Shown here piece after piece: positions 11,037 through 35,428 of a stretch of 64,000 nt of DNA; position 1 is the first letter of the stretch; every line of letters starts with the position of its first letter. The DNA is from Haladaptatus sp. ZSTT2. GTDB taxonomy: Archaea; Halobacteriota; Halobacteria; Halobacteriales; Halococcaceae. A model generated the notes under the pieces. The model ran no database searches, had not been told where the DNA came from, and worked only from the letters and a program-made list of their open reading frames with translations. The position numbers and the translations under genes were made by a program. Location: the NCBI RefSeq assembly GCF_037081775.1, contig NZ_JBAMHQ010000002.1:1-64000 (forward strand), in the 5' to 3' direction.

Positions 11037-11057
11037 GCCAGTCAGCACTCAGGCTTC

Positions 11058-13382: not shown

Positions 13383-13407
13383 ACCACACACGATTCGACC
13401 CGTCTGC

Positions 13408-13449
13408 ATTAAGCTATCGCCAATTGTCAGTTCAGGCACCAAGCTATAT
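13408..13449. promoter_or_regulatory. Back-to-back promoters between the large-subunit and cyclase genes
   Basis: Two TATA-like elements share the core AAGCTAT: 13408-13416 read leftward lies about 30 bases before the ATG at 13382, and 13441-13449 read rightward lies about 32 bases before the ATG at 13477. The repeated core may also be a regulator site. Confidence 0.4.
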
Positions 13450-13476
13450 GTGCCCAACCCACAGAGTGAGAGTCGT

Positions 13477-14124
13477 ATGCGGATACGAGACCTTTCCATC
13501 GCAGTCGACGAAGAGACGAGTGTCCCACCGAAACTCCCGACGTTCAGACAAGGGCGGGTCGTCCGCCACGAGGAGTCGAACTACGAGAGCGACTTCATGG
13601 CGACGACCACCCACATCGGGACGCACATGGACTCGCCCTACCACTTCGACGCAGACGGGCGGAAAATCGGTGACATCGACCTCGAAGAGACCATCCGGCC
13701 GACCAAGCGAGCCGACGTGCGCGACATTGCAGAGCCGAACGCCGAGATTACCTTAGAACAGGTAAAAGAGCGCCTGCCGTCGCCCGTCGAAGAGGGTGAG
13801 TTCCTGTTCGTCCACACCGGGTGGTCGGACAAACACGTGAACACGCCCGAGTTCTACGGCAACAACCCGTACTACGCAGAAGACATCGCAGAGTACGTCG
13901 TGGAGACAGGTGCCCGCGGACTCATCACCGACGCCGCCATCGACCCCGGCGACGAGGGGTACCGCAACCACTACACCTTACTGGAGGCGGACAAAGTCAT
14001 CGTCGAGAACGTCGTCAACTGCGACGGCCTCCCAGACGAGTTCACGACGTGGGTGATTCCAATGCGGCTCAAAAACGGCGACGGCGCACCCGCGCGAGTG
14101 TTCGTCGTCCTCGACGAGGAGTGA
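13477..14124 (+). CDS. Cyclase / kynurenine-formamidase-type metal hydrolase
   Basis: A 215-aa protein of the cyclase family (PF04199 type), which includes bacterial kynurenine formamidase and isatin hydrolase. These use a divalent metal to hydrolyse amide, lactam or formamide bonds. The metal motif HxGTHxDxPxH is complete (H46, H50, D52, H56), and a further conserved His occurs around residue 168. The ATG at 13477 gives the usual start (MRIRDLSIAV). One base separates it from the nitrilase-family gene, so they form a pair. The context between two molybdenum hydroxylases suggests hydrolytic opening of an oxidised N-containing ring (inference). Confidence 0.85.
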   Translation: MRIRDLSIAVDEETSVPPKLPTFRQGRVVRHEESNYESDFMATTTHIGTHMDSPYHFDADGRKIGDIDLEETIRPTKRADVRDIAEPNAEITLEQVKERLPSPVEEGEFLFVHTGWSDKHVNTPEFYGNNPYYAEDIAEYVVETGARGLITDAAIDPGDEGYRNHYTLLEADKVIVENVVNCDGLPDEFTTWVIPMRLKNGDGAPARVFVVLDEE

Positions 14125-15637: not shown

Positions 15638-18013
15638 TCAGGCGTCGTTGTCCGAATCGACCGCCTTCAGAATCTCTTCTGGCGTGAACGGGATGTGCGT
15701 CAATCGCACGCCGGTCGCGTCTTTGATAGCGTTGCCAATGGCGGCCGCACTCGGGATGAGGACGGCTTCACCGACGCCTTTCGCGCCGTAAGGACCTTCT
15801 TCGTCGTGTGTTTCGACGATTTCAGTGTGCACCTCAAGCGGGTGCTCGGTCGAGAACGGCACCTTGTAGTCGAGCAGATTCGCGTTCTCGAAGCGACCAT
15901 TGTCGTGAGTTAACTCCTCGTAGAGCGTCGAGCCAATGCCCATACTAATGCCGCCTTCGAGCTGTCCCTCGACCATCTTCGGGTTGAGCGCGCGGCCCAC
16001 GTCGTACACTGAAGCGAACTGGTTGAAGCGCACCTCACCGGTGTAGCGGTTGATTTCTAAGTCACAGGCCTGTGCGCCGTGAGTGTAGAAGGCGGTGAGT
16101 CGGTCGCCATGGCCCGTCTCCGGGTCTACGTTCTCGACCGGCGAGTGCCACGTCGCCTTCCCGAGAATCTCGCCGCCCTCCATCAGGAAGCCACCGCCGC
16201 CGAACACCGTCGGCTCGAACAGTTGGTCGAAGGTGATTCCGTTGTCACGGTCGCCTTCGACGTACACCAACCCGCCGTCGGTCTCCAGATTCTCGGGTTC
16301 GGCGTCGAGTTTGACGGCGGCGTGTTCGTAGAGTTGCTCTTTGGCGTCGATACAGGCCTTCCGCACCGCGTTGCCCGTGTTGAACGTGAGCCGACTCGAA
16401 ATCGAACCGTCGTCGTAGGGCGTGACTTCCGTATCACCCTTGAGGACGCGCACGTCGTCTAAGTCAACGCCGAACTCCTCTGCGGCGATCTGGGCGAGCA
16501 CGGTCATCGAACCGGTGCCGATCTCCTCTGCGGTGGTGCGCACCTCGATGCGCCCGTCTTCGTGTACCTTAACGAACGCGCTTGAGGCGGTTGGCGCCAT
16601 GCTGTACTTGCTCCCCTGTGCGAGGCCAACGCCGCGAATCCACTCGTCGTCGTCGCTTTCTGCGCCGTCCATCTCGACTGCCGCTGCCGCCCGGCGCAGG
16701 CACTCTTTCGCGCCCATGCTCTTCATCTGTTCTCCCGCCGGGTTCACGTCGCCGGACTCCATCGTATTTTTCTCGCGGAATTCGACCGGGTCCCAGCCCT
16801 GGTCCATGATGGCGTCTTCGACCAGCGATTCGATGGCGAAAATGAGCTGTGAGTTCCCGAAGCCGCGGAACGACCCCGCGACGGGCAGGTTGGTGTACAC
16901 CCCATAGGAGTCGAATTTCAGGTGGGGGATGTCGTAGGTCCCGACCGCAGCGAACCCACAGTTGCGCGTGACGAGGAAGCCCGTGCCGGCGTAGGCGCCG
17001 CCGCCGAGGTAGGCTTGGGTTTCCATCGCCACGAGGCGCTGGTCGTCGGTGACGCCGATTTTCAGGTCGATTTCGAAGGGCGTCCGGTAGGTGCCCTCGA
17101 TGAACTGGTCTTGTCGGGAGAAGGCGAGTTTGACCGGCCGCCCGTCGGTGTGTTGGGCCACGGCGGCCGCAATCGGCTCGGTGACGCCCTCTTTCCCGCC
17201 GAAGCTTCCGCCGACGTAGGGCACCTTCAGGTGCACCTTCGAAGAGGGCACGTCGAACGCGGTTGCGAGCATGTTCTTCACGCGGTAGGTCGTGTTCGTC
17301 GAGGTCCAGACGCGGAGTTCGCCGTCGGTCGTCCACTTCGCGACGGTGACGTGCGGTTCCATCTGGACGTGGTGCATCATCCCCGTCGAAAACGAACCTT
17401 CGTAGATGTGGTCTGCTTCGTCGAAGCCAGCGTCGATGTCGCCGGTGCGAATCCGGTGGTTCGCGTGGAGATTCGGCCGCTCGGGGTCGAGCCGTGGTTC
17501 GAGCACGCCCGTCTGTTCGTATTCTCCGAGTCCTTCGTGAACGACTGAGGGTGGGTCTTCAGACAGTGCTTCTCGCGTATCAAAGACAGCAGGGAGTTTC
17601 TCGTATTCAATATCCACCGCGTCAGTGGCCTTCCGCGCGAGTTCTTCGCTCTCTGCGGCGACGGCGACGACGGCCTCACCCACAAACCGAACCTTCTCTT
17701 TCGGGAGGATAGATTCATCGAGAATGCCCGCACCGTAGCGCCCGTCAGGTACGTCATCGCCCGTGACGACCGCGTGGACGCCGTTCATCTCTTCTGCCGC
17801 ACTCGTGTCGATATCGAGAATCCGTGCGTGGGCGTGTGGGCTTTTGACCGTCTCGACGTGTAACATCCGCGGGAGGTCAATGTCGTAGGTGTACTCGGCC
17901 TCGCCGACGATTTTACTGACGGCGTCGAGGCGTTGCCGTGAGGAACCGACCACCTTCGTATCGAGATTTGTGGAGTCCTCACGGTGACTGGCCACTGGCT
18001 CTTGTTGACTCAT
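15638..18013 (-). CDS. Molybdenum hydroxylase molybdopterin-binding (large) subunit, system 2
   Basis: A 791-aa catalytic subunit of the xanthine dehydrogenase family, a distant paralogue of the subunit at 11058-13382. Motifs include VGGSFGGKEG, AGSFRGFGNSQ (the substrate-pocket loop, normally GAFRGFG), EIGTGSMTVLAQI and the catalytic Glu in GAKGVGEA. The AYRCSFR loop of CO dehydrogenase is lacking. The ATG at 18013 (MSQQEP) is chosen over the frame start at 18085, because a TATA-like box sits 30 bases before it. It is divergent from its FAD and iron-sulfur genes, whereas in system 1 the large subunit converges on them. Substrate unknown; a second hydroxylation of the same ring is one possibility. 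Confidence 0.9.
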   Translation of the reverse strand: MSQQEPVASHREDSTNLDTKVVGSSRQRLDAVSKIVGEAEYTYDIDLPRMLHVETVKSPHAHARILDIDTSAAEEMNGVHAVVTGDDVPDGRYGAGILDESILPKEKVRFVGEAVVAVAAESEELARKATDAVDIEYEKLPAVFDTREALSEDPPSVVHEGLGEYEQTGVLEPRLDPERPNLHANHRIRTGDIDAGFDEADHIYEGSFSTGMMHHVQMEPHVTVAKWTTDGELRVWTSTNTTYRVKNMLATAFDVPSSKVHLKVPYVGGSFGGKEGVTEPIAAAVAQHTDGRPVKLAFSRQDQFIEGTYRTPFEIDLKIGVTDDQRLVAMETQAYLGGGAYAGTGFLVTRNCGFAAVGTYDIPHLKFDSYGVYTNLPVAGSFRGFGNSQLIFAIESLVEDAIMDQGWDPVEFREKNTMESGDVNPAGEQMKSMGAKECLRRAAAAVEMDGAESDDDEWIRGVGLAQGSKYSMAPTASSAFVKVHEDGRIEVRTTAEEIGTGSMTVLAQIAAEEFGVDLDDVRVLKGDTEVTPYDDGSISSRLTFNTGNAVRKACIDAKEQLYEHAAVKLDAEPENLETDGGLVYVEGDRDNGITFDQLFEPTVFGGGGFLMEGGEILGKATWHSPVENVDPETGHGDRLTAFYTHGAQACDLEINRYTGEVRFNQFASVYDVGRALNPKMVEGQLEGGISMGIGSTLYEELTHDNGRFENANLLDYKVPFSTEHPLEVHTEIVETHDEEGPYGAKGVGEAVLIPSAAAIGNAIKDATGVRLTHIPFTPEEILKAVDSDNDA

Positions 18014-18030
18014 ACCAACCGCGTATTGAA

Positions 18031-18056
18031 TGGTACGCCATATAATGTTTGGTACG
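18031..18056. promoter_or_regulatory. TATA box flanked by TGGTACG direct repeats, divergent promoter region of system 2
   Basis: CCATATAATG (18038-18047) lies about 30 bases before the large-subunit start at 18013. Identical heptamers TGGTACG at 18031-18037 and 18050-18056 flank it, 19 bases apart. This arrangement would let a regulator control access to the TATA box. Confidence 0.5.
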
Positions 18057-18242
18057 AACCGACAAACCAGTTGTCGCGGCGACACGCGACGGGAGTGGTG
18101 TCACACATCGTGACGCTCGCGCCGTGTAACAACTGGATGAGATCACCAGGAGGGGTCGCCTCCGCGTGTGCAGTGTCAGGAATTGTCGTGTGTGCCGCGT
18201 TCGCATAGACTTATGTGACTCCACTCGAAAGCCGAGTGTAGA

Positions 18243-19124
18243 ATGGCAACAGAGCTGACCGAGGAGGGTGAGTTCCATCGAGCGTCATCTATCGAGGAGG
18301 CCGTCACACTCCTAGAAGAGCGCAACGCCGCGCTCATCTCAGGAGGGCAAAGCCTCATGCCGCTGATTCGACAGGGGCTGATAGACCGCGACGTCATCGT
18401 CGATATTTCGGGCATCGACGACCACACCGACATCGCCGTCACGGACGACGGCCTCCAGTTGGGTGGGCTTGCGACTCACCGCGACCTCATCGAGGCAGAC
18501 CTCTGGGAGACGCCGTATCGCGCGCTCCCGGAGACGGCAAAAGAAATCGGAGACAAGCAGGTACGAAACTGGGGAACCATCGGCGGGTCGGTCGCCCACG
18601 CAGACCCCTCACTCGACTACCCGCCGACGATGATTGTACTGGATGCGGTGGTGCAGTACACGGATGGCTCCGAGACGAAGGAAGTGCCCATCGACGAGTT
18701 CTACCTCGGCCAGTACTTCACCGTGCTCGAACCGCACGAAATCGTCATCGGGGTCCGCGTTCCAAAGCCGTCTGCGAACACGGGCGTCGCCTTCGAGAAG
18801 TTCGCGTGGCGACGCGGCGATATGTCGCTCGTGAACGTCGCCGCGAGCGTGACCGTCGATGAGACCGGAAGCGAAATCGAAGCCGCACGCATCGCGGTCG
18901 GTGCGATGGGGCCAACCCCGCTTCGGCTCACGGAACTCGAAGCCGAACTCGTCGGGAGCGACCCCAGCGATGAATCCCACCAGCAGGCGGTCGCAGACCG
19001 CGTCGGTGAGTTCACCGAACCCGTTCCCGAGGCCCACGGCTCAGTCGAGTACAAGAACCGCATCGCGACCAACCTCACGAGAAAAACGATTCGTACCGCC
19101 ATCGAGCGGGCAACGGAGAACTGA
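18243..19124 (+). CDS. Molybdenum hydroxylase FAD-binding (medium) subunit, system 2
   Basis: A 293-aa flavin subunit. FAD loops are LISGGQSLMPLIRQG near residue 35 and TIGGSVAHADPSLD near 115. It is paralogous along its length to the system 1 FAD subunit. The stop and the start of the iron-sulfur gene overlap by one base. The 229-base region before it holds the divergent promoter shared with the large subunit. Confidence 0.92.
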   Translation: MATELTEEGEFHRASSIEEAVTLLEERNAALISGGQSLMPLIRQGLIDRDVIVDISGIDDHTDIAVTDDGLQLGGLATHRDLIEADLWETPYRALPETAKEIGDKQVRNWGTIGGSVAHADPSLDYPPTMIVLDAVVQYTDGSETKEVPIDEFYLGQYFTVLEPHEIVIGVRVPKPSANTGVAFEKFAWRRGDMSLVNVAASVTVDETGSEIEAARIAVGAMGPTPLRLTELEAELVGSDPSDESHQQAVADRVGEFTEPVPEAHGSVEYKNRIATNLTRKTIRTAIERATEN

Positions 19125-22282: not shown

Positions 22283-22504
22283 CAGCGCGGCCCTCCCGCG
22301 AGCGCAGGGCTCTCGACAGCAACTGACCGTTCCGAAATGAGAGTGATTGAACGCACGTAGTAGACCACACGCACGCAAGCGCCATACGTTGGTTCAGAAA
22401 TCATTTCATCGCAGGAAATCGAGTGAGTGGAGCAGGGGCTGTCACGCGGTGAAACTGTTTCACGCCACGAAATTGCTAAGGGCGACCGGGCAAAACGGAG
22501 AGCC

Positions 22505-23293
22505 ATGGAATCGGCGCTCGAAGAAATCGAGTTTCTCACGCTTTCTCCAAACCGGGTCAGAATCCTCTCGTTGCTCGCGACTGAACCACACACGCGCCGC
22601 GAGTTGGTCGCAGAAACGGGTGCGTCCCAACCAACGCTCAGCCGGGTTCTGAGCGACTTCGAGGAGCGAAACTGGATTACCCGCGAGAACAGCGATTACA
22701 CAGCAACGGCGACCGGCCGCCTCGTCGCAAACGGCTTCGGCGAACTGCTCTCGGTCATTGAAACTGAAGCGAAACTCCGGCCAGTCGTTCGGTGGTTGCC
22801 AGCGGACGTGCTCACCTTCGACCTGAGCCACCTCGCAGAGGCGACGATTACGATGCCAACGCAGGTGCGACCGAACGCGCCGGTCAAACGGGTTGTTTCC
22901 CTCCTTTCGAACGCGTCTGACGTGCGAATCGTCTCCTATGCGTTCAACGAACAGAGTTTGGCTGTCGTCCAGAAACGGACAGGTGCGGGCGACCAGCAGT
23001 TCAAGGGCGTGTTCTCAAAGAGCGCCATCGACGCGCTCGCAGACGACTCACAGCTTCGGATGCGCCTCGAAGCCCTCATGGCCACCGAGGGAGTCGAAAT
23101 CCGGATGACCGACGACGACCTCCCGCTCGCCGCGACCATCGCAGACGAAGCGGTGCACCTCTTTTTGCGCGATGACTCAGGGCTGGTGCAGGCCGCCCTC
23201 GACACCGACGACGCAGTTGTCCGTACGTGGGCTGATGAGTTGTTCACCGAACAGTGGGAGGCGGCAGAGCCGGTCACGCTCGGCGAGCACTGA
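22505..23293 (+). CDS. Winged-helix transcriptional regulator of haloarchaeal two-domain type
   Basis: A 262-aa protein with an N-terminal winged helix-turn-helix (about residues 10-75: SPNRVRILSLLATEP, TRRELVAETGASQPTLSRVLSDFEERNWI). A C-terminal domain (about 110-250) resembles the haloarchaeal regulator domain that follows such winged helices. The ATG at 22505 (MESALEEIEF) gives the usual start for this group; the frame is open from 22427. It is divergent from the DMT transporter and converges, with a gap of only 17 bases, on the muramidase gene. Which of the two it regulates is unknown; divergent placement favours the transporter. Confidence 0.82.
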   Translation: MESALEEIEFLTLSPNRVRILSLLATEPHTRRELVAETGASQPTLSRVLSDFEERNWITRENSDYTATATGRLVANGFGELLSVIETEAKLRPVVRWLPADVLTFDLSHLAEATITMPTQVRPNAPVKRVVSLLSNASDVRIVSYAFNEQSLAVVQKRTGAGDQQFKGVFSKSAIDALADDSQLRMRLEALMATEGVEIRMTDDDLPLAATIADEAVHLFLRDDSGLVQAALDTDDAVVRTWADELFTEQWEAAEPVTLGEH

Positions 23294-23310: not shown

Positions 23311-26300
23311 TCAGGGCATACTACGCGTTGGCGGTGCGATGTCGATGTGGACGTGGTCGTCGTGGCCGGCGTGTTGCTGACAGAGGCCTTCAGCGATGAG
23401 CGTGGTATCGTTGAACAGCGCGCGTGAGAACAGCGGTTGAGCGCCGAACGCTTCCAAAACGGCGCGCATCGCGTCCCGGTCGTAGGTGGGTGAAGTCCAC
23501 GTGATTCCGCCGGTGTTCCCGTCGGTTCGGGCCAGCCGGAGGTCGCACGCCATGCCCGTCTCGTGGCCGGCGTGGTCGGGCGTATCGCCGCCGTGTGGCA
23601 GGCTCACGTCGTTGACCGTCAACAGCGCCGCGTCAGGGTTCGTGTTCAGGTAGTTGTCGCGGTAGTGGGCACCTGCGTCCGTCACCGTCTCTGCCATCCA
23701 GTCGGTGCCGTAGTCGTGGGTGTCTGCGGGGTCGTTTCGCTCGAAGTTGAAAAAGCCGTCACCGGCACCGCCGAGGGGCATCAACTGCCAGTGGGGTGCG
23801 TTCGTCGCCCGCAGCCAGTCGTAGGTGTCACCCGGCACGTCAACCCGGCCGTCTCCGGCGACATCGTTTCGCCCGTTCTTGATGGACTGCACCAAGTTGA
23901 TGACGGCTACCAAGGCGGCATCGGCCGTCGTATCGACCGTGAGCCAGTCGAAGCCGAGGTCGACGAGCCGCTGTTTCAGCGCGCGCACGTCGTCTGGGTT
24001 GTTCGTTCCGCCGGTGCCAACGCTGGCGCTCAGGGTGAAGCCCGTCGTGGTCGCAGTGCCACGGTTTGCGAGCACCGTCGTCCCGGCGTCGAAGCCTACC
24101 TGCAAACCACTCGCATAGTTCGGCGGGACGCCAGACGGCCAGCTTGCGCGGACAACCGGCAGGGCGGTCTCGCCGTTGTACATCTCGCTCAAGTCCGCCC
24201 AGTACTGGTCGTCTCGCGTCTCGGTCGCTTCGAGCGCGGCGAGTTCGAGGCCCGTCTCGCCGTCGAGTTCACGCTGGCGGAGATAGTCGAACAGCGCCAG
24301 CACCTGTGCGCGCTCGCTCGCGTCGAAGGCGTCGAACATGGCGCTCGCAGATTCGTAGCCGATTTCGCGATGATTGCCGCCCATAATCTGGGGGTACCCA
24401 ACGCTCGCCGCTTCGATGGCCGTGTCTCGGTCGGCAAGCGTCTCCGCACGCGCGAGGGCAGCGTACTGGAGGTCTTGGAACGCATCCCCGCAGACCGGGT
24501 CGCCGTGAAGCAGTTCCCAGCTGTCCGGTGGGCAGGTACCTGACTCACAGAATCGGTGATTACGCCAGTTCACGGTGGTTCCGTGGTCGAAAAACTGGTC
24601 GTACTGTACTTGGTTGGCCTGTCCCCACTTCCGCCAGAAGACGTGATTTTCGAAGCGGAGCATCGGGTCATCGCGGGCTGAGAGGTCACAGCTGCCACCC
24701 TCGTTGCGGTAGAACGCCATCGGAACCTGCACGTCGATGCCGAACTCGTCGCTCAGATACTCGAACAGCCCGCCGACGCGGTTGTAAATCGTGGCGACCT
24801 GTCGCTCAAACGAATCTGGGGCGGTGAGCGTCGCTGTCTGTGCTGGGGCGAGGTCGACACCGGGGTCGTTGTCCGCCAAGAACCAGTGGAGATTCGAAGT
24901 GGCAGTCCATCCGATGGCGTCGCCGCCCGTCGTCGTGACGAAGGCGAGTTCGCCCTCGGTGGCGTGAGTCAGGCGTTGGGCGACTATCACTGCCGTCCAG
25001 TCGTCGATGAGGAGCACGTTATCGCCTGAATCGAAGGTGACGTTCGGCCGCCCTTGCAGGTCTTGGTACCGGTCTTGCTCGGCCTGCGAGGCGGACGATT
25101 CGGGCGGCCGGGCACCCGCGTAGTTTGCCCCCGGATTCCGGAGCCACGCATCGTCTTTCACGACCCGGTAGACGACCTGCGCTGGGCCGCGATCTGGTAT
25201 CTCAAGCGGGGCGGTGAGCGGTGCGGTGCGTTCTATTTCCTCGCGGGCGTCTGCGAGCGGCGACGAAAGCACGTCGAGTGGCGTGTACGGCGGTTTTGGC
25301 AGGCCGTGTTGGTCGTCGTCGAGCGGGAGGCCGTCTCGTTCGCGCGCGGTGCGGACGCGGTCGAGATAGCTCACCTCCTGTGGGAACGCTTCCGGTGCGT
25401 GGATGAGGACGCCGAATAGATGCCACTCGATGATGTGGCGGTCATCAGCAAGGTGTAAGTCGGGCGACGTGAGGTCGCCAAGCAACCGTTCGAGCGGGTC
25501 GTCGGCTGGTGAGATACCCATGCCGAGCAGAACGTGGTTTGCGATTTCGACCCCGAGGTAGCGCGCCGTGAGTTCCTCTTCGAAGCGAGGCCGCGCGAGC
25601 GCCTCATCGAGCAGTGTTTCGAACGGCGTGCCTTCCTGTGGCGGGGTGTCGCCAACATAGAGGCTCGCTCCGCTCGCCAGTTCGCCAACTTCGACGGTGT
25701 GTGAGCCTTTCAGCTCGATAGTGAGCAGGTCGTCACGAGCGGCACCTTCCAGTTCGGATTGCGGTTCTGTGCGACCGGTGACGAGGAACGTTCCCGTCGT
25801 TGGACTCGACGACGCCGGGCGAAACTGCGGCGGGAGCGTCTCAGAAAACGGTGGGTCCTGCCACACGGTTCGAACGTTTGCGAACCTGAGGAGGTGGTCT
25901 GCAATCGTTCGAGTGCGCCGGAGTAGCCGGTCGCGGTCCATCCCAGTATCGGCCACCAGCGTGTCGAACGACGGCGTCACCGTCACGTTCGCAAACCACG
26001 GCACGGAGAGGATCGCCAAGCCACGCGGAATCACGTCGTCGCCGGAAATCGCTTCGAGGCGGAACTCGTGGAGGCCCGGCTTGCCCGCGTAGAGGTCGAT
26101 GGTGAGGTCGGTCGGGTCGGCTTCGAGAACCGCCGTACCGACCCGGTACGGTAGGTCGAGCGCCCATCGGAGATTCGACGGAACCGCATTTTCGAACTGG
26201 GCGTCGAGTTCGATGACGCCGGAGGTGTCGCCAAGTGACGCAGACCCAGTTGTTCGGTCGCCCGGTTCGAACGCGGTTCGTTCTGCGGGGATGTGGTCGA

Positions 26301-26418
26301 GCGCGTTTTCGATTCCGAGCAGTTGGAGACCGCCGCGGATGCCGTCGAACAGCACCTCCCAGACGAGGTCTGCGAGGGTCGGTTCGTCGGGGTCGAGCGT
26401 GGGAGTGCCGTTTGTCAT
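23311..26418 (-). CDS. Giant protein with N-acetylmuramidase and M15-type peptidase domains (predicted peptidoglycan hydrolase)
   Basis: A 1035-aa protein and third gene of the giant-protein operon. Residues 1-400 are unrecognised. An SH3-like segment (about 455-512, ending GWTATSNLHWF) precedes an N-acetylmuramidase domain of the DUF3380/PF11860 type (about 530-720). Hallmarks there are NEGG with likely catalytic E573, MLRFENHVFWRKWG, and SVGYPQIMGGNHREIGY near 672-688. A peptidoglycan-binding-like helical unit (about 805-865) is followed by a C-terminal M15/VanY-like peptidase with HETGMACD (H952, D959) and DHVHID (H1022, H1024). Such domains cut the glycan and peptide parts of murein. Haloarchaea lack murein, so a bacterial target is inferred. 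No Sec or Tat signal is visible. The ATG overlaps the upstream stop codon. Confidence 0.85.
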   Translation of the reverse strand: MTNGTPTLDPDEPTLADLVWEVLFDGIRGGLQLLGIENALDHIPAERTAFEPGDRTTGSASLGDTSGVIELDAQFENAVPSNLRWALDLPYRVGTAVLEADPTDLTIDLYAGKPGLHEFRLEAISGDDVIPRGLAILSVPWFANVTVTPSFDTLVADTGMDRDRLLRRTRTIADHLLRFANVRTVWQDPPFSETLPPQFRPASSSPTTGTFLVTGRTEPQSELEGAARDDLLTIELKGSHTVEVGELASGASLYVGDTPPQEGTPFETLLDEALARPRFEEELTARYLGVEIANHVLLGMGISPADDPLERLLGDLTSPDLHLADDRHIIEWHLFGVLIHAPEAFPQEVSYLDRVRTARERDGLPLDDDQHGLPKPPYTPLDVLSSPLADAREEIERTAPLTAPLEIPDRGPAQVVYRVVKDDAWLRNPGANYAGARPPESSASQAEQDRYQDLQGRPNVTFDSGDNVLLIDDWTAVIVAQRLTHATEGELAFVTTTGGDAIGWTATSNLHWFLADNDPGVDLAPAQTATLTAPDSFERQVATIYNRVGGLFEYLSDEFGIDVQVPMAFYRNEGGSCDLSARDDPMLRFENHVFWRKWGQANQVQYDQFFDHGTTVNWRNHRFCESGTCPPDSWELLHGDPVCGDAFQDLQYAALARAETLADRDTAIEAASVGYPQIMGGNHREIGYESASAMFDAFDASERAQVLALFDYLRQRELDGETGLELAALEATETRDDQYWADLSEMYNGETALPVVRASWPSGVPPNYASGLQVGFDAGTTVLANRGTATTTGFTLSASVGTGGTNNPDDVRALKQRLVDLGFDWLTVDTTADAALVAVINLVQSIKNGRNDVAGDGRVDVPGDTYDWLRATNAPHWQLMPLGGAGDGFFNFERNDPADTHDYGTDWMAETVTDAGAHYRDNYLNTNPDAALLTVNDVSLPHGGDTPDHAGHETGMACDLRLARTDGNTGGITWTSPTYDRDAMRAVLEAFGAQPLFSRALFNDTTLIAEGLCQQHAGHDDHVHIDIAPPTRSMP

Positions 26419-29400
26419 GGTTGAATGAAGGTTCCGGAGGTTGCAGTCGCGCCGCGTCGGTCAGTGACGACGGCACGATATTCGTAGCGCACAGCCGCGG
26501 TTCCGACCGGGACGCGGTCTGAGACGGTCACGCGCTGAACGTTGGGTGCGACGAGCGTCGGCCCGAGGTCTTCGACCGAAACCGACTCGGTTCGCGTCCA
26601 TCGACCGGTTCCGAGCGGGCGTCGCTGCAGGCTGAGGGCGAGGCCGTAGCCGGTGACGCGAACCGAAACGTCGCGCTCGCGGCTGTTCGCACTCGGTTGC
26701 GCAACCGCTTCGATGTCTGGCTGAGCCGGTGGCTGAGTCGTCCCTGCACGCACCCACACGGGCGCGGTCGGCGCAGAGCGCAACCCCGATTCCGCGACCG
26801 CGACGGCTCGATATGCGAACCAGCGGTCGGGCGACACGGCGTCTTGAACCAGGAGTGGGTCGGTTTCGCTCCCTGCCTGCGGGGTAAGCGGGCGCATTCG
26901 GCGGAGGTCTTCGACCGCGTCGCGGTCTGGCGTCCGGTAGAGGCGCACCGTCTCGGTGGCTCCAGATGGGTCAGGGGCGACGGTGAGGTGTATCTCACCG
27001 GGGGCGGCCGCGTCCGTCGTCGCTGCGAGCTGTGGCGTGGGTGGCCGTGCAGTCTCAGGAGTTCTCACGACGGCGAATGCCTCGTCGTCGCTCGGCCACG
27101 GGCTTCGCGTTCCGGTCGGGCCGGTGTGGCGAACCATGACGACCGTCCAGCCGCGGTCTTCTGCGGGCAAGGCAACCTGATGGCGCGTCTCGCCGTCGTC
27201 GTACGGCGTCTCGTGTGCCGGTGAGAAGGCGTGTTGATTCGCGGGGTTTTTCGCAATCTCGCGCAGGCGTTGGACGCGCGCGGTGGTGTCTCTACTCGTA
27301 AACGTCGCGCGCGATTCATCGACAGCCGCGAGCAGGCGGGCCTCTGGCGAACGAAGCACCTGCGTGCGCGACCCGGGCGGCTGTGGCGTCCACGAAACCG
27401 TCCAGTAGCAGGTACCCAGCGCGTCCGGCCACGTCGCGACCTGCGGTTCGAGCGTCAGCGTCTCGGGCGTCGGTTCGACCGGGTCGACGCGCTCTGCGAC
27501 CGTTCTCCGCGCCGGGTTCGAGGCGTTGTCACTGTCGTCAACGGCGACGACCGTCGTCGAGATGCGGGCGCGGTGGGTTGCATCGTACGGCCGGGTAACA
27601 GCCGGAATCGTGACCGTGAGGCGCGCGTCCCTCGTGGGGTCGCTCGCTGCACTTGGCGGTTCCACCGACGCTGTTACCCCAGCCAGCGGCGAGGTTACCT
27701 GCAAGTCGGGCCACGATATCGAAAGCGGGCTGAACACGCCCGCCTCCGTCTCACAGCCATTCCAGCCGGTAAAGTCGCGGTCAACTTTCCCCTGTTGGCA
27801 GTGAATCTCGAACCGGGCAGTGTCCGGGGCGAGCGTACGTTGGCCAGCAGTCCAGTCAAACGATAGTTCGAGTTCCCACGTCGGCTGGTCACCGAGCAGG
27901 CGTGCGCGGAGTCCAGTCGGGGCAGGCGGCGAAACGGTGTCAGCGACCGTCTCAGTCGTCTCCGCAAAGTCGCTCCACCGCCCCCAGATGTCCATACCAG
28001 CGACGCGGTAAGTCGAGTCGCCCAACGGCGGTTCGCGGTCGGTGAACGTGTTTACGCCACCGGCCGCGGGCAGTCGCGGGAGCGGCAGTCCTGAGTCCGG
28101 TTCGGTGCTCGAAAGTGACTCGTCTGCCGTGCCGTGACGACGGCGAACCGCGAAGGCGACGTGGGCGTCGTCGGTGAACAGGTTCGCATCCGGCGCGTCC
28201 CACGAGAGGTCTACGACCGCCTGCGTGCCTGTGACGCCGCTTCGAGATTCGACGTGGCCCGTCACTCCGTGTGGGGGAGTGACTGCCTCGCGTGCGCCGA
28301 CCTGGACGTTCGTCGCAACCGAGACGACGGTGCCGACTTGCGAACTCGGGATGCGGTGGGTTCGAGACTGTGAGAGCCCCGGCAGCGGCAGGGCAACGTT
28401 TTCCCCGTCGGCGTTTTCTCCGAACCGTTCGAGCGCTTGGTCGCGCATCTCGGGGGCGAGCACGCCCCATAGCCACAGCGTCCACCAGTCGGCGCTCACC
28501 ATGTAATCGACAGGGGCTTGCTGTGGCTCGTCGGCCGTCGTTGCAAGCCCAAGCAGGTGGGCAACGCCGGGGTCGAGCGACGCGACTTGCAGCATGTCGA
28601 GCAGCGGCACGTCCACCGTAGACCCCGAGAGGTCGTCGTTGGTGCCGTCGGTTGCTTCGAGCGGTTCGTCGCCGCCGTAGCGCACCGCCCGTTGTGGCTT
28701 GGCTTCGGTAACTTCAGTCGTGACAAGCGTTTCGAGCGCGTCGGCGAGGTCGTCGTAGTCTGCGAGATACCGCCTGTCGATGTCGGCTTCAAGCGCTGTG
28801 TCGGTCGCCGGGTCGGGCGGCCAGTCGGCGTTGGCCCACGGCCCGAGTGCCTGCGGTTTTGCACGGTAGAGCCGGTCGCGGGCCACCTGCAAACCCGAGC
28901 GAGGCTGTGCCGGATAGGTCACGTCGTCGCCGTCGATTGGGAGGAAGAACGTCTCGACTGGCTGCCAGCCATTCGCGTCGGCGTAGTCGTCCACCGTAAT
29001 CCACTCGACCAGTTCGACCTCTGCGAGCCGACCGGTGAGCCGCACCTCGTCGATGACGGTGCCGTTCAGCAGGAACGTCCCTTCGACCCACTCGTCGGTG
29101 TCGGGAAGGCCGCCCCCGAACCGGCCGCCAAGCCGACCGCCAAATCGCCCGCGGTCGAGCACCGACCCGAGGTTGAGGTTCGGGATGCGACGGAACTGCG
29201 GCTGGGAGCCGAACGGCCCGGTTCGCCGCCCGGAAACGCGGCCTCGCAGACGCGCCGCTGGCGATTCGCGCTCCGGAGTCGACGCCTCGATTCTGGCTTC
29301 GAGTTGGTCGGTGTCGAGGTGCACGTCGGTCAGTGTCGGCAGGAACTCGACGTTTCGAATGCGCCGTAGCGTGTCGAGGTCGAACGTGTCTACGAGCCGG

Positions 29401-29909
29401 CCGAGCGTATCTGCGAGGTTGCGGCCGCTTGCGCCACGGTCTTGGACGCGGACGGTGTCGCCATCCACGAACACGGCACTCGCGGCGATGGACCCCGCTT
29501 TGCGGTGGCGATAGCGCACCAACGCCCAGCAGGCTGGAGTTGACGCCGCAGTCTCGCTCTCGTCTTCAGTGAATCGGAGGCGAACCGTGTCGGTGCCGAC
29601 GCTGATAGCGTGTTGTGTACTGCCCGGTGTGAGGCCATCGGCTGCCGTCGCGTGGAGGCCCTCTTGGTCGCGGAACTCGCCGTCTGCAATCTCGCTCCCG
29701 AGCATGTGTGCGCGCCGGACACGCACGTCCCGTCGCTTTGGGTCCCATGGCAGGGGAGAAGGACGGCGAACCAGTTTGAACCCCGAGCGAGGAAAACCAA
29801 GGTCGGACGAGAACGTCCACCGAAGGTGGTGGCCGTCAGCGAGGTAATCGTCGGCTTCGATACCGAGTGCGGCGAGTTGGAGCAGAGTTGGGTTGACGTA
29901 TCGGGTCAT
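26415..29909 (-). CDS. Giant protein with C-terminal fibronectin-III-like repeats, unknown function
   Basis: A 1164-aa protein, middle gene of the three-gene operon. The start at 29909 (MTRYVNPTLLQLAALGI) is well supported: GGAGGTG lies six bases upstream and the ATG overlaps the stop of the 1830-aa gene as ATGA. The frame is open back to 30188, but only inside that gene. Residues 1-500 are unrecognised and include an RG-rich patch near 245. From about 515 to the end several beta-sandwich modules of fibronectin-III type are visible (for example PPAPTGLRARL, WFAYRAVAVAESGLRSAPTAPVWV, YEYRAVVTDRRG). This suggests an adhesive or structural scaffold. No signal peptide or membrane segment is seen. 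Confidence 0.8.
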   Translation of the reverse strand: MTRYVNPTLLQLAALGIEADDYLADGHHLRWTFSSDLGFPRSGFKLVRRPSPLPWDPKRRDVRVRRAHMLGSEIADGEFRDQEGLHATAADGLTPGSTQHAISVGTDTVRLRFTEDESETAASTPACWALVRYRHRKAGSIAASAVFVDGDTVRVQDRGASGRNLADTLGRLVDTFDLDTLRRIRNVEFLPTLTDVHLDTDQLEARIEASTPERESPAARLRGRVSGRRTGPFGSQPQFRRIPNLNLGSVLDRGRFGGRLGGRFGGGLPDTDEWVEGTFLLNGTVIDEVRLTGRLAEVELVEWITVDDYADANGWQPVETFFLPIDGDDVTYPAQPRSGLQVARDRLYRAKPQALGPWANADWPPDPATDTALEADIDRRYLADYDDLADALETLVTTEVTEAKPQRAVRYGGDEPLEATDGTNDDLSGSTVDVPLLDMLQVASLDPGVAHLLGLATTADEPQQAPVDYMVSADWWTLWLWGVLAPEMRDQALERFGENADGENVALPLPGLSQSRTHRIPSSQVGTVVSVATNVQVGAREAVTPPHGVTGHVESRSGVTGTQAVVDLSWDAPDANLFTDDAHVAFAVRRRHGTADESLSSTEPDSGLPLPRLPAAGGVNTFTDREPPLGDSTYRVAGMDIWGRWSDFAETTETVADTVSPPAPTGLRARLLGDQPTWELELSFDWTAGQRTLAPDTARFEIHCQQGKVDRDFTGWNGCETEAGVFSPLSISWPDLQVTSPLAGVTASVEPPSAASDPTRDARLTVTIPAVTRPYDATHRARISTTVVAVDDSDNASNPARRTVAERVDPVEPTPETLTLEPQVATWPDALGTCYWTVSWTPQPPGSRTQVLRSPEARLLAAVDESRATFTSRDTTARVQRLREIAKNPANQHAFSPAHETPYDDGETRHQVALPAEDRGWTVVMVRHTGPTGTRSPWPSDDEAFAVVRTPETARPPTPQLAATTDAAAPGEIHLTVAPDPSGATETVRLYRTPDRDAVEDLRRMRPLTPQAGSETDPLLVQDAVSPDRWFAYRAVAVAESGLRSAPTAPVWVRAGTTQPPAQPDIEAVAQPSANSRERDVSVRVTGYGLALSLQRRPLGTGRWTRTESVSVEDLGPTLVAPNVQRVTVSDRVPVGTAAVRYEYRAVVTDRRGATATSGTFIQP

Positions 29910-32900
29910 GGAGCACCTCCAGGTGAAAGAACCGACGGACGCATCGGGAACGGAACGTTGAGCGGCTGTGTCGTCGAAGACAGTGTCACGCGAGCGGGCT
30001 GGCCAGCCACGAGTTCGCCAGCATCCGGGACGAACAGAATTCGAGCGCCCGATTCGCCGGTGACGAACCGGCCGGTGAGGGCACGGCTGCCCTGACGGAC
30101 GGTCAGCGTCACCCCGTCGCGGAGTAACGGTTCTGGACCGTCGAGGACGAGCGCGACGGGGGCAGCATCGTCCGTCGTCGGATTCCACCGCCAGACGCGG
30201 ATGGCTTCGGGCGTTTCGGGAGGTCGACGTGGCGGCAACCCGAGCGTCTCGAACAGTAAGTGGTCGAGCGCGCCGTCGTCAATGGTAACCTCCCCCACCG
30301 TCGTCTCGGGCGTGGCGGCCGCGGTGGTCGCTGTGCGAAGCCCGGCCGCGTTCGGAAGCGTGTCGGTGAGTTCATCGACCAGTTCATGGGAGGCGAGATG
30401 GGCACCCGGCGAAGCCCAGCGCGAGGTGGTAAATCGCCACGTGTAGACAGCTGGTGCGGTCTCCCAATCGATGGTTGAGAGAGGCGCGGCCGCATCGATG
30501 CGGTGGAGCGTAGTGACGTATCGGGTGGCTGGTTCGAGCAACGAGGCGATGGTGGCCGTGGCCTCGCGCCACAACTCCCCAACGCGGTCGTCGACGCAGT
30601 TGAGCGATTCGAGCGTACTGCGCCAGACCGCTTGTTCTGCGGGGAGGTCTGCCGCACGTTCTGCGATGGCGTCGGCGCGTTCGAATAAGTCAACGCCGTG
30701 TTCATCGACGAATCGGAGCGCGAGCGCGTCGCCGTAGGCGGTGTAGGTGGCGAGCGTGCGCGCAGAACGGAAGGTGACTGTTGCCGGACTCTCGGTGTAG
30801 TGGGGAACTGACCCATCCGGGAGCGCGTGGATGTCCCAGTCGTCGCGTGTGCGGTCTGGGTCGTCGGTTCCGCGCAGGGTCGAGGGCGGGTTGCCCGCCG
30901 TCGTGAACGAGATGGTCTCCGTAAACGAACCAGCAGGGTCACCGACTTTGACCGGATCGTCTCCCCACTGCTCTGCGTGGGTCGCCTCGACGGTCATCGA
31001 GAGTTCGTACTCGGTTCCCGGCGCGAGCATGTCGAGGTGTTCGCCGCGCAACGTCGCATCCACGAGGTCGGCCGTCAACTCGGTCAGCGTGTCGCGCTCT
31101 GCGCGGTTCGTGCGGTCGCCGTAGCGAACCTCGACCGAGAGGACTGACGCAGCCATCGCCGAGAGCGCAGCGGGGACGTGCGGGAGGGTTGGCGGCCGCA
31201 CCGCGAACAGGCGAATCGCATCGACCGGGCGCGGTGGCGCACAGCCGTAAAATCGCCAGCCTTTGTCGGTGTCGGGTGGCGTACCAGTGACGCCCTGTAA
31301 CGGAAACGACTGCCCGAGTGGCGTGAGTGGCAGTCGCCCAGTCGCAGGGTCGCCATCAACGAGCCCAATCGCGACTATCTGCACGTCGTCTGCGACGAGC
31401 AACTGCACTTCGGCGTGTTCGTGGGCGGGGAGGACGATGTCGAGCGGGTCGACGAGCGAGGGGATGTCCGCTGGTTCCCCCTCCACTGCCGACAGGCGGT
31501 TCACCTGCGGTTCCGGGCCGATGAGGTGATTGACGAATGCCAACCCCTGTGCACTCCGTGGCAGCACCTGCGGGACGCCAAGGAGGCGGTCGCGTTGGAG
31601 CGGTTGGCGCGGTGCTTGGGCTGGCTCGAACGGTGGCCGGACGACGCTCCCCTCTACCACAGCGGCATCGACCATGCGGCGCGCGGCCGCAGACCCCTCG
31701 GGAGCGACGCGTCCCCAGACGGGCGGGTCGCCCACCGTGTCGCGGAACGCTTCGGTGAGTTTCAGGGGCGTGGTGAGGTCGTCACCCGCGGGTAAGCCGG
31801 TGGCGTCGTAAGCCAAGCGAGCCTGTGGTTTTTTCAGGAAGCACGGGTCCCACTCGCGGGTTTGTCGTTTCGACAACTCGCCGCCCAAGCCGACGGTTCG
31901 GTTGAGGTAGGTCGCCTCGTGGGTGAACAAGAGCAGGTCTTTCCGGGCGGGTTGGCCCCCTGAAGCAGCAGCCGCGCCGGAAGCCGAGGCGGCGTCGCCA
32001 CCGGGCGTCCACGTCGCCGGAGCGTCTGCGACCGTATCGCCCGTTTCGACGTTTTTGACGGTGCAGTCGGTGAGTTCGTAGCGATAGCCAATGCGGTGGC
32101 GGCGTTCGACACCCTGTGTTTCGGCCTGCTCCGTGGTGACGACTTTCCACACGTCCGCCCCGCCGTCGGCCGTCGCCGCCGTGAACGAACCAACCGAGCC
32201 GATGCCGTTGATTGGGGCGTCAAAGGAGAGGGCGAACACGGGGTCTATCGGCACGTCAGTGAGGCCGCCGTCTGCCGCCGCGTCCAGCAGTGAGTGTGCT
32301 TCCCGACGATTTCGCGGTCTGAGCTGGCAATCGACGAGTGGGTTCGGCGCGTCGGGGAGGTCGCCGCCGGGGCCGAACGTCACCGAGACGCTCGTGTTGA
32401 TGTCGTCGAACGGCCACGGGAGGTCGATTTTCACCCCGACTTCGCCCGTCAGTTCGAACGGGGTGGGCGCGCGCCCGGCCAGCCGGGCGAACACACCGAG
32501 GTCGAAGCCAAAGCCGAACACCTTGACGACGATGCCGCCCTCGATTTCGACCAAGCCGACCAACAGCGGCGGGTCGGCAAGCGAGACGCCGAGGTGGAAG
32601 CCCGCCTCTGCGTACCAATAAATTTTGAGGACGCTCGATTTCAGGCCCCAGTCGATGCTCGCCTCACCGCCGAGTGCGAGCGCGAGTCCGGGAAGCGGGT
32701 CAACCGTCGGGAGTCCCGTGATTGGCGAGCCATCGAGCATCAGATACGCAGAGAGGTCGAGCATCCCAAGCGCCTCCGCGATGACGCGCGCCTCCGGCGG
32801 GGCGTAGCGACCCATGTAGAGGTGAAAGTCGCTTGCGTCGGCCAAGTTGACGAATATCTCGACGGGAATCGTGACCGTCACGAGGTCTGGACCGTCGCCT

Positions 32901-35398
32901 TCCGGGATGGCGAGTGCGACGCGGAGGTCGATGGTCAACACGTCGTCTTCTAAGTCGAGGACGACGACGGCTGCGAACGGCGGTTCGTCCCCACCGCCCA
33001 TCGAAGGTTTCTCCGAGAACACGTCGCCCGTCCCGGCGAGGATGATGACTGGTCCCGGTAGCAGGATGATGAGGCCGACCTTTGCGCTCCAGGACCGGGC
33101 GTCGTCCGGCGCTGAGCCGATGATGGTCGAGGCCCCAAAGCCCCACTCGTCGAGGGCGGGCACCCACTTCGAGGCGTGTGTCGTGTACGCCGGAGCCTCG
33201 TCCATGTACCAACCAGCGTAGTCGTTTGGAGCAGGCAGCGCGGGTTTGGCGTTCTGTGCGTACACCAGCCCAAGCCCGTAGAGGCCAATGCCGGAGGTGC
33301 CGAGCGGGATGCCGGGGTTGAACGAGCCGTCAATCGTGACGACGAGCGTCGTCATACCGTCTGAGCGGGCCGCAGAGAGGAGGCCAACGTCCAATCCGAG
33401 CATGTAGCTCTCGCGTTTCGTGTGGTCTGCGGGGGTTGTGGCGGTGCCGTTGCCGATGAGGAAGCCACGCAACGATCCTGCCATCGCGCCGTCCCACGAG
33501 CGCCCGTCGCCCGCCGGCGGGAGCGAAACGGCGTCCGCACCGGTCTGGAGTTCGCCGCGAGCGTAGAGCACGCCCGGGACGAGAAGGGTGACCGGCATTC
33601 CGCCACCGAGTCGGATGGAGATGGTGCCGTCGGCCGCGACGACAATGATGATGGCGTCTGGAACCCCGGCGATTGCCACGTCGCCTGCGCCTTCTGTCTC
33701 GACGCCGAGTTCGATGAGAAAGTCCGAATCTTCGGTCCTGAGTTCGACCGTCGAGATGGTGATGGCATTCCCGATGTTCGCATCTGCCTGCAGGCTCACC
33801 GCCACGTCGTCTAAATTCCAATCGACGCTGACGGGGGCTGTGGAGACGCCCGCGGCTTCGAGAGCCGCGTGGTTCGTGACGTACTCGATGGTGACGCCGC
33901 TTCCTTTGAGGCCGAGAGGCGTGTTCAAATCCGCGGCGTCTACGTCGAGAGTGAACTCTGCCGCGAGGTCGAGGTGCGCCGCGAGGACGTGCTTCCACGA
34001 GTCGGTTTGGCCAATCTGCACAGCGTCGTACGAAAAGTCGAGGTTCTCGATGGCGAATCGGTCGGTGGTGAGGATATCGGCGGCTTCGAGGGCGGCGAGC
34101 GCTCCAACGAACAGCGACGCCCCGGTGCCGCCAGCGACGGCAAGTCCCGCGAGTGCGGTGTAAATAACGCCGCGCGCACTTCCGAGGTCGTCACTCGTGA
34201 GGTCGAGCAGCGGTCCGTCTTCGGTGGCCCGCGCGACGAGGTTGAACCCGAAGCGGGCGGCGGGCGGGCGCGCTGGGTCGTAGCGAAGGTCCACCGCGAG
34301 CGTTACGTCGCCGTCGCTGCCGATGGCCGCGAGGTCGTCGCTCAGTTCCGAGAGCGCGAGGGAGACGGTGGCAGCGAGGGTTTCCGGTACCCAGTCGCGG
34401 TCGAACGCGAGCGTCAGTTCATCGAGTTTCCACACGGCATCTGCATGGCTCGGGTGATTTTCGGGGAGCGATAGCGTCACCGCGCCGACGAGGCCGCGGT
34501 GGTCGATGAGCCACTCACTGAACGTGAGGCTGGTGCCGTCTGCGGCGTCAGAGTCGAGGTCGGCAGGGAAAAACGGAAGCCACGTCTGGAGGCCCCACAC
34601 GGTGAGTTCGCCGATGTACAGCCCGCGCCACGAGGCATCGTAGCCCGGCAGGGACGCAACCGGTTCGGGCGTGCTCGTTGCAGAGAGGTCAGCCACGAGA
34701 TCGCGCAGTTCGAAGCCGACTTGTGTATCACGAAAAAGCAGTGGCGGAAGCGACACCGAATCCGGGTGTTTGAGGTCGATGCCGACACCTTCGGCCGTGT
34801 CGGCGTACAGTTCAATCTCGCCCAGTTCCACCATGGCTCGCGGGTCGTCTGGGTGTGGTTCGATGCCGACGACCTCGCCGTTCGCTTCGAGCAGCTTGCC
34901 GACTTGGAACGTCTCTTCGGGCAGCCCGATGGACGCGGTGAGGTTCGAGAGTTCGACTCGAATGTCACCGAGAGACGGCTGGTCGTCACCGCTCGTCTCG
35001 AACGCAGTGTGTGCTGCGTCGATGTCCGCAGCGGTCATCGCTTCGAGACCGAGGGCGTTTGCGGCGTCCGCAACATCCTCGGCGGTGGCGAGACTCGCCC
35101 CAAGCAGGAGCGTCCCTATTGCGGTTACGACCGGTTCTGAGGCAAGGATTAGTTCGAGGGTCGCCGTCGTCACGTCAGCATCGAGCGCGCCAAAGCCAAC
35201 GTCGAACCCGAACAGGTCGAAGGTAAGTGAAGCGTCAAGTTCGACTTGTGTCGAGAGCGTGACCGTGTCCGCGGTCCACGTTTCGTCGAAGTCGTCGAAC
35301 GTGAGATGGTCAAACAGACCCCCCGCGTCTGGGAGTTCGTCGAACGGAAACCACCCCGGAAACAGCAGACTTGCATCACGAATGAGTGTCGACGACAT
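29906..35398 (-). CDS. 1830-aa giant beta-rich protein, possibly DUF6603-like, unknown function
   Basis: First gene of the operon and the longest in the window. The N-terminal 1080 residues are almost wholly alternating hydrophobic and acidic beta-strand-like segments with glycine turns (IGLYGLGLVYAQN, AKVGLIILLPGPVIILAGTGD, ALALGGEASIDWGLKSSVLKIYWYAEAGFHLGV). The pattern reminds me of uncharacterised DUF6603-type proteins, but I cannot confirm this. After a Cys/Arg-containing junction (VDCQLRPRNRREAH) the C-terminal 700 residues look like Ig-like beta domains with helical inserts. There is no Sec/Tat signal and no clear transmembrane helix. The ATG at 35398 has an AT-rich promoter centred about 23 bases upstream, so the transcript is probably leaderless. 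The next gene overlaps by ATGA. Confidence 0.78.
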   Translation of the reverse strand: MSSTLIRDASLLFPGWFPFDELPDAGGLFDHLTFDDFDETWTADTVTLSTQVELDASLTFDLFGFDVGFGALDADVTTATLELILASEPVVTAIGTLLLGASLATAEDVADAANALGLEAMTAADIDAAHTAFETSGDDQPSLGDIRVELSNLTASIGLPEETFQVGKLLEANGEVVGIEPHPDDPRAMVELGEIELYADTAEGVGIDLKHPDSVSLPPLLFRDTQVGFELRDLVADLSATSTPEPVASLPGYDASWRGLYIGELTVWGLQTWLPFFPADLDSDAADGTSLTFSEWLIDHRGLVGAVTLSLPENHPSHADAVWKLDELTLAFDRDWVPETLAATVSLALSELSDDLAAIGSDGDVTLAVDLRYDPARPPAARFGFNLVARATEDGPLLDLTSDDLGSARGVIYTALAGLAVAGGTGASLFVGALAALEAADILTTDRFAIENLDFSYDAVQIGQTDSWKHVLAAHLDLAAEFTLDVDAADLNTPLGLKGSGVTIEYVTNHAALEAAGVSTAPVSVDWNLDDVAVSLQADANIGNAITISTVELRTEDSDFLIELGVETEGAGDVAIAGVPDAIIIVVAADGTISIRLGGGMPVTLLVPGVLYARGELQTGADAVSLPPAGDGRSWDGAMAGSLRGFLIGNGTATTPADHTKRESYMLGLDVGLLSAARSDGMTTLVVTIDGSFNPGIPLGTSGIGLYGLGLVYAQNAKPALPAPNDYAGWYMDEAPAYTTHASKWVPALDEWGFGASTIIGSAPDDARSWSAKVGLIILLPGPVIILAGTGDVFSEKPSMGGGDEPPFAAVVVLDLEDDVLTIDLRVALAIPEGDGPDLVTVTIPVEIFVNLADASDFHLYMGRYAPPEARVIAEALGMLDLSAYLMLDGSPITGLPTVDPLPGLALALGGEASIDWGLKSSVLKIYWYAEAGFHLGVSLADPPLLVGLVEIEGGIVVKVFGFGFDLGVFARLAGRAPTPFELTGEVGVKIDLPWPFDDINTSVSVTFGPGGDLPDAPNPLVDCQLRPRNRREAHSLLDAAADGGLTDVPIDPVFALSFDAPINGIGSVGSFTAATADGGADVWKVVTTEQAETQGVERRHRIGYRYELTDCTVKNVETGDTVADAPATWTPGGDAASASGAAAASGGQPARKDLLLFTHEATYLNRTVGLGGELSKRQTREWDPCFLKKPQARLAYDATGLPAGDDLTTPLKLTEAFRDTVGDPPVWGRVAPEGSAAARRMVDAAVVEGSVVRPPFEPAQAPRQPLQRDRLLGVPQVLPRSAQGLAFVNHLIGPEPQVNRLSAVEGEPADIPSLVDPLDIVLPAHEHAEVQLLVADDVQIVAIGLVDGDPATGRLPLTPLGQSFPLQGVTGTPPDTDKGWRFYGCAPPRPVDAIRLFAVRPPTLPHVPAALSAMAASVLSVEVRYGDRTNRAERDTLTELTADLVDATLRGEHLDMLAPGTEYELSMTVEATHAEQWGDDPVKVGDPAGSFTETISFTTAGNPPSTLRGTDDPDRTRDDWDIHALPDGSVPHYTESPATVTFRSARTLATYTAYGDALALRFVDEHGVDLFERADAIAERAADLPAEQAVWRSTLESLNCVDDRVGELWREATATIASLLEPATRYVTTLHRIDAAAPLSTIDWETAPAVYTWRFTTSRWASPGAHLASHELVDELTDTLPNAAGLRTATTAAATPETTVGEVTIDDGALDHLLFETLGLPPRRPPETPEAIRVWRWNPTTDDAAPVALVLDGPEPLLRDGVTLTVRQGSRALTGRFVTGESGARILFVPDAGELVAGQPARVTLSSTTQPLNVPFPMRPSVLSPGGAP

Positions 35399-35413: not shown

Positions 35414-35428
35414 CTAATAATTAATAAC
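35414..35428 (-). promoter_or_regulatory. AT-rich promoter of the giant-protein operon
   Basis: Read leftward, TTATTAATTATTAGG is centred about 23 bases before the ATG at 35398 within otherwise GC-rich DNA. The distance predicts a transcript starting at or next to the start codon. No other promoter is obvious inside the three-gene unit. Confidence 0.55.

Follow-up and report, generated by a model that had tools for sequence, protein, structure and literature searches.

The A-B-C operon

We analyzed the first 64,000 nucleotides of contig NZ_JBAMHQ010000002.1 (hereafter the window) from the haloarchaeon Haladaptatus sp. ZSTT2, and specifically gene C, which encodes a predicted two-headed peptidoglycan hydrolase, with the two giant genes, A and B, that precede it. 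All three are on the minus strand and appear to be translated from one operon in which C is last. Gene A (29906..35398), the first gene of the cassette, encodes a leaderless, beta-rich 1830-aa protein with distant DUF6603 kin; no Pfam family was detected in it at E<=1. Gene B (26415..29909), recognized by open reading frame, alignment, and profile, is adjacent on the same strand, and its ~1164-aa product is FnIII-like in style with an N-terminal DGHHLRW..LGFP motif. The stop of A and the start of B overlap as ATGA (29906..29909), with a ribosome-binding-like GGAGGTG just upstream (29914-29920), and the stop of B overlaps the start of C in the same way (ATGA, 26415..26418). The AT-rich TTATTAATTATTA (35415..35427, minus strand), 17-29 nt before the ATG of A, may be an archaeal promoter box, which suggests that the operon starts at A.

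Gene C spans 23311..26418 and begins with ATG. Its 1035-aa open reading frame was given exactly in a preliminary description of the window that lacked the strand, which is minus; the plus strand over 23311-26418 is full of stops. The motifs quoted in that description were all found in place: E573 within NEGG, FENHVFWRKWG (residues 589-599), QIMGGNHREIGY (677-688), HETGMACD (952-959), and DHVHID (1021-1026). Assignment of C as a peptidoglycan hydrolase comes from Pfam, PHROG, and fold matches. A simple hydropathy scan (not SignalP) indicated no signal peptide, twin-arginine (Tat) motif, or clear transmembrane segment in A, B, or C; within the first 35 residues of C it revealed neither a hydrophobic stretch nor RR. 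Given the lack of an evident signal peptide, C is not established as a simple secreted lysin.

A predicted muramidase joined to a predicted endopeptidase

The muramidase region of C comprises residues ~540-755 (24154..24801), as delimited by Pfam and Foldseek. Residues 568-750 score 67.5 bits for PF11860, the cut-off of which is 22.3 (E=2.4e-18), so that, for the muramidase, the possibility of C belonging to no hydrolase family is contradicted. The region also matches an endolysin family in PHROGs (E 1.4e-18). For comparison, we gathered 79 phage PF11860 domains using a degenerate DNA pattern for WGxFQIMG, which matched 80 loci; 78 of these domains were comparable in the alignment. The position of E573 (codon at 24700..24702) is Glu in 78/78, and E590 and H592 are kept in 78 and 77, respectively. 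A scan of viral contigs with the muramidase-domain sequence of the window itself gave no match, nor did a tblastn search of the phage collection with C at 1e-3.

Residues 540-1035 of C were modeled with AlphaFold2 from 29 homologous rows. The cores of both heads have predicted local distance difference test (pLDDT) values of 85-96, and the middle of the model is unreliable. In a Foldseek search of the PDB, matches 1-7 to the muramidase head are the endolysins Pae87, LysT84, and AP3 (prob 1.00, E 3e-6 to 4e-5). The N-acetylmuramidase-type domain of the preliminary description is therefore borne out by a family score far above cut-off, an invariant E573, and an endolysin fold. Cleavage of the murein glycan strand is the predicted activity of this domain, and the prediction is well supported.

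The preliminary description also proposed an M15-like metallopeptidase, with a possible murein-binding unit between the two heads. The latter corresponds to the PG_binding_1-like part (residues ~797-870; 23809..24030) of an endopeptidase module. The M15 label was not retained: no M15 family matched C among Pfam or NCBIfam results at E<=1, and Foldseek aligned the second head with MepA chains in the PDB (prob 1.00, best E 5e-3). Because its predicted fold matches MepA, we classify the putative zinc endopeptidase (residues ~896-1030; 23329..23733) as MepA-like (M74/LAS). The module is sub-threshold in Pfam, with 10.8 bits versus 25 for M74 (PF03411) and 14 bits versus 23 for PG_binding_1 (PF01471), and the PF03411 score is why the peptidase is filed as MepA-like and not as an M74 member. 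PG_binding_1 is above cut-off in the homologous stretches of a phage protein (L023, 29.1 bits) and a Nostoc plasmid protein (L001, 43.7 bits).

Residues ~794-1030 of C are 49.8% identical to the Nostoc protein (3e-55) and 46-49% identical to phage endolysins (1e-69). These phage relatives are themselves two-headed, combining a phage lysozyme, a PG_binding_1 unit, and the homologous peptidase, and so appear to follow the glycosidase-plus-peptidase logic of C. H952, D959, and H1022/H1024 are conserved across 7 homologues. The predicted zinc motif H952-x6-D959 (23542..23565) is identical in the phage, Nostoc, and haloarchaeal proteins, and the terminal HxH (H1022, H1024; 23347..23355), the second part of the site, is identical in all homologues. 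Overall, structure prediction recovered an endolysin fold and a MepA fold, and both active-site residue sets, which looked intact in the preliminary work, are conserved in alignments within matching folds; the active-site claim draws on alignment together with fold.

The Nostoc gene is on a 41-kb plasmid (pNPM5), where it adjoins genes for a family 10 glycosylhydrolase, an M15 peptidase, and an SH3 protein. Together, these genes look like a small lytic gene cluster.

Host, salt adaptation, and distribution of C

Haloarchaea lack murein. The Haladaptatus genome (3.2 Mb in 4 contigs; completeness 99.95%, contamination 0.84%) has an archaeal small-subunit (SSU) rRNA, and the murein polymerase GT51 is absent from it in a search that was positive in 10 controls. 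The earlier statement that this is a peptidoglycan hydrolase in an archaeon without peptidoglycan is consistent with both results. The isoelectric point is 4.39 for C overall, 4.29 for the muramidase, and 4.50 for the peptidase module, versus 6.3-8.9 for the phage and Nostoc homologues, and Lys makes up 0.5-0.8% of the C domains. Since both domains are strongly acidic, we consider them salt adapted rather than the product of contamination. GC content at third codon positions (GC3) equals that of neighboring genes. Gene C is not a contaminant and has not been freshly imported, and with its catalytic residues kept and both domains acidified it is also not the decayed import that the preliminary description had argued against.

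A scan of genome contigs with C alone found no relative. The PG-binding/endopeptidase module was identified in 3 of the 372 genomes of the order: this one, G359, and G345. The haloarchaeal modules are 54% identical to one another and 39-49% identical to those of phages and Nostoc, and the tree is weakly supported. In G359 the module occurs in a 516-aa protein (L191, G359:C1, 8847-10397), with PF03411 above cut-off and an unassigned N-terminal half that looks lytic-transglycosylase-like by eye only. In G345 it is fused to a leaderless subtilase; the genes of interest at this locus (L192, G345:C2) are at 9531-12293 minus and 1262-2584 plus. Proteins of 1241 aa and 854 aa without Pfam matches adjoin the subtilase, an eCIS_core (PF13699) protein is encoded ~7 kb away, and the genome has a sheath gene.

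Recurrence of A and B with varying third genes

A whole-genome search with A recovered homologues in the haloarchaeon G326 and in G208, with B homologues around them. We also scanned 84,980 species genomes with patterns from three A proteins; an alignment of three rows worked for this, and in alignments of 4-7 rows the sequences diverged too much. The 25 loci detected through these patterns, which are not a random sample, are from Alphaproteobacteria, Paenibacillus, spirochaetes, Chloroflexota, actinobacteria, Halomonas, cyanobacteria, and a Poseidoniales archaeon. B adjoins A in 21 of them (profile E down to 1e-138), and in the remaining four the contig ends within A. Two layouts occur, B-X-A and A-B-Y, and C sits in the Y slot. 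No conserved fourth partner is evident in the flanks of the A+B loci listed.

The third gene belongs to the phospholipase D (PLD) family in 18/21 A+B loci, and the HKD motif is intact in all B-X-A PLDs checked. The third genes of five A-B-Y loci (L015, L040, L045, L046, and L048) encode PLD-like domains that have lost HKD, which suggests that these domains are not catalytic but have a binding or structural function. A PDB search with the L045 third gene gave no match. The PLD profile has no match in the window, where the third gene is instead the predicted murein hydrolase. The spirochaetal third gene at L028 (420-2972) is repeat-rich and beta-helix-like by eye, is not a PLD, and has no Pfam match. 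A PG-binding or lysozyme-like part, suspected by eye in the third gene of Azospirillum L017, is not claimed, as Pfam and PDB searches were empty.

Strong A homologues are patchily distributed in the Halobacteriales, occurring in 5/372 genomes: this one, G326, G548, G415, and G472. The order is B-PLD-A in G326 and G548, as it is on Mycetohabitans plasmids, and subtilase-A-B in G415. The G415 subtilase (L186, G415:C20, 12289-17919 minus), a 1876-aa protein encoded upstream of A and B, resembles the Azospirillum L017 third gene over residues 1356-1708 (BLAST 6e-6). This connects two putative cargo genes that have little else in common. True archaeal DUF6603 proteins (E to 1e-129) were found at L020, L021, and L022 (genomes G221, G306, and G161) in larger operons of 1000-1600-aa proteins that have neither B nor PLD; these apparently constitute a second giant-protein system. 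No paper mentioning DUF6603 was found in our literature search.

Neighboring genes

A rhomboid-family membrane protein (PF01694, 8e-18) is encoded at 35638-36273 on the minus strand, 240 nt upstream of A and in the same direction. The GC content of this region falls to ~0.50, and the gene is probably separate from the operon. Convergent with C is an HVO_A0261/FilR1-type helix-turn-helix regulator (22427-23293, plus strand) that could be a local regulator. Farther along are two xanthine-dehydrogenase-family large subunits (11058-13499 and 15638-18085, minus strand) and a flavin adenine dinucleotide subunit (18243-19124, plus strand), a catabolic region typical of the metabolic neighbors.

Proposed role of the cassette and alternatives

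In the reading that we favor, A and B make up a carrier or scaffold to which an exchangeable hydrolase is added, and C would be cargo acting on bacterial murein in competition or scavenging; we give this proposal about even credence. A and B would assemble in the cytoplasm, the third protein would be their exchangeable enzymatic cargo, and the carrier would be released by lysis or some other route. Because the cargo slot here holds a murein hydrolase, the target of the assembly would be the bacterial cell wall. There, the muramidase would cut the glycan strand, and the MepA-like zinc endopeptidase, placed behind the peptidoglycan-binding unit, would cut peptide cross-links. The proposal builds on the identified domains, the conservation of their active-site residues, the matching folds, the adaptation to salt, the arrangement of the operon, and the recurrence of A+B with varying third genes. 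From these we infer enzymatic activity, a physical complex, release, and a bacterial target. Murein cleavage by C is well supported among these predictions; an A-B-C complex and its antibacterial use are more conjectural, as is the weapon or feeding tool of the preliminary description.

More broadly, A and B may be the core of an undescribed effector machine of bacteria and archaea that differs from contractile injection systems. Its load would be an interchangeable enzyme (PLD, subtilase, or murein hydrolase), and some haloarchaea would use it against bacteria. This wider version is tentative, and we lean toward doubting it. The sheath gene PF04984 was found neither in this genome nor in G326, G548, or G472, in searches with positive controls. 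A strongly hydrophobic leader at the N-terminus is likewise missing from the bacterial cassette members tested, which points to an unusual route that all of them share or to an assembly inside the cell that lysis sets free.

Several observations weigh against the carrier proposal. Only one of the A-B cassettes found includes a murein hydrolase, and PF11860 was detected in no other genome, either among 295 sampled in the phylum or among 293 in the order. Residues 1-540 of C have no relative among the third genes of other loci, by BLAST or profiles. In the A-B-Y loci tested, the PLD domains no longer have the HKD motif, so a hydrolase as third gene is not universal, and the third genes of 3/21 loci and of Azospirillum L017 have no assigned kind. 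The indication of an interaction between A, B, and C is gene adjacency, and the predicted structure of A (pLDDT 57, low confidence) is too poor to interpret, its matches to LptD, apoB, and porins at a TM-score of about 0.1 being uninformative. Finally, with no export signal found and no contractile sheath in the genome, the path of C to murein is unexplained.

The alternative that survives best, although we rate it as rather unlikely, is that C is a stand-alone bacteriolysin of phage or cyanobacterial source, like Woldo or the Aciduliprofundum GH25 enzyme, that A and B are mere neighbors, and that C exits by lysis, in vesicles, or via an unrecognized signal. Bacteria-killing archaeal peptidoglycan hydrolases are established, and 68% of those catalogued have no known signal peptide (PMC12352652). 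The PG-binding/endopeptidase modules of G345 and G359, moreover, have no A or B nearby. However, the genes of the A-B-C operon overlap at ATGA, C occupies the third-gene slot of other A-B loci, and the 540-residue N-terminal half would be superfluous in a simple lysin.

Less probable still is action in or on the producer, where the cassette would be a housekeeping or stress assembly for lipid or envelope remodeling and C would cleave an archaeal glycan or peptide. Such a role could account for the lack of export signals in every member, for the long beta-strands of A and its no more than vague resemblance to lipid-handling beta proteins, and for PLD being the commonest partner. However, both catalytic domains of C come from families specific to murein, and the unit joining them is of a peptidoglycan-binding type, in a haloarchaeon that has neither murein nor GT51. 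The presence of A in 5/372 genomes is also unlike the distribution of a housekeeping system.

We consider it very unlikely that C is part of a virus or contractile injection system, as an endolysin, tail lysin, or effector. Phage endolysins are the closest relatives of both catalytic parts, and in G345 an eCIS_core protein is encoded near the module-bearing subtilase, but patterns from A found no relative of its core in 2.9 million viral contigs, and beside C there are ordinary metabolic genes rather than tail or capsid genes. We rejected a virus or provirus on these grounds, and a contractile injection system by the absence of PF04984 from the genome. Scarcely credible is a recent inactive import or assembly contamination: PF11860 does occur once in the order, but the catalytic residues are all kept, the contig is 404 kb long in a genome with 0.84% contamination, sister modules exist in haloarchaea, and contamination specifically is rejected on the haloarchaeal acidity of both domains and the neighbor-like GC3.

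The study of archaeal attack on bacteria is still young, and delivery of the leaderless majority of hydrolases is unexplained. Here, a leaderless hydrolase is tied by its operon to two giants that recur in many phyla, making the locus a concrete candidate for a delivery or scaffold system without a contractile sheath. The domain signature of A+B could be used to find more cargo.

Comparison with known systems

The phage muramidases Pae87, LysT84, and AP3 (PF11860, also DUF3380) are like the C muramidase in family, invariant Glu, and predicted fold. They differ from it in that the C domain, ~25% identical to them, is strongly acidic and is one of two catalytic heads in an archaeal protein of 1035 aa. 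MepA (penicillin-insensitive murein endopeptidase, M74, LAS superfamily) has its fold and the H-x6-D plus HxH zinc motif in common with the C peptidase, at 14-16% identity; PF03411 is reached by the haloarchaeal sister in G359 (26.1 bits) and not by C. A parallel to the overall design is phage endolysin L023 (IMG/VR contig 3300047564_004575), which comprises a glycosidase, PG_binding_1, and a MepA-like module, the last two 49% identical to C. Unlike C, it is encoded by a phage gene, and its glycosidase is a phage lysozyme (PF00959) rather than PF11860.

Modular murein hydrolases were reported in 175/3,706 archaeal genomes (about 5%), and two Halogranum enzymes were shown to kill a bacterium (Strock et al. 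2025, PMC12352652). In that survey, signal peptides occur in 32%, and the hydrolases lacking one show some enrichment in genomes that have a sheath gene (P=0.059). C resembles Woldo/Danwoldo (Halogranum salarium) and the other modular archaeal enzymes in being haloarchaeal and predicted to cut murein, with bacterial or phage origin and domain shuffling. However, Woldo is an M23 enzyme with a Tat signal, whereas C has muramidase and MepA-like heads and no evident signal. The filter of Strock et al. needed one catalytic and one binding Pfam domain and, as the binding unit of C is below the Pfam cut-off, would probably have missed it; screens based on Pfam thresholds can miss archaeal murein hydrolases. 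No paper describing PF11860 in archaeal genomes turned up in our literature search. Murein hydrolases of archaea as such have been described before, and it is the muramidase plus MepA-like architecture, the missing signal, and the A-B setting that are new to the searches made.

For gene A, the nearest described proteins are the DUF6603 (PF20248) giants. The A homologue in G326 passes the cut-off for this family (29.4 bits vs 27), whereas A itself has no Pfam match and its own genome is DUF6603-negative. The B-PLD-A cassettes of the Mycetohabitans plasmids and of G326/G548 have A and B homologous to those of the window; they differ in order (B-X-A) and in their third gene, which encodes a phospholipase-D-family enzyme with HKD where the window has the murein hydrolase. 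That A+B recur in both bacteria and archaea beside a third gene that varies was missed by the preliminary description and is the more novel part of our findings.

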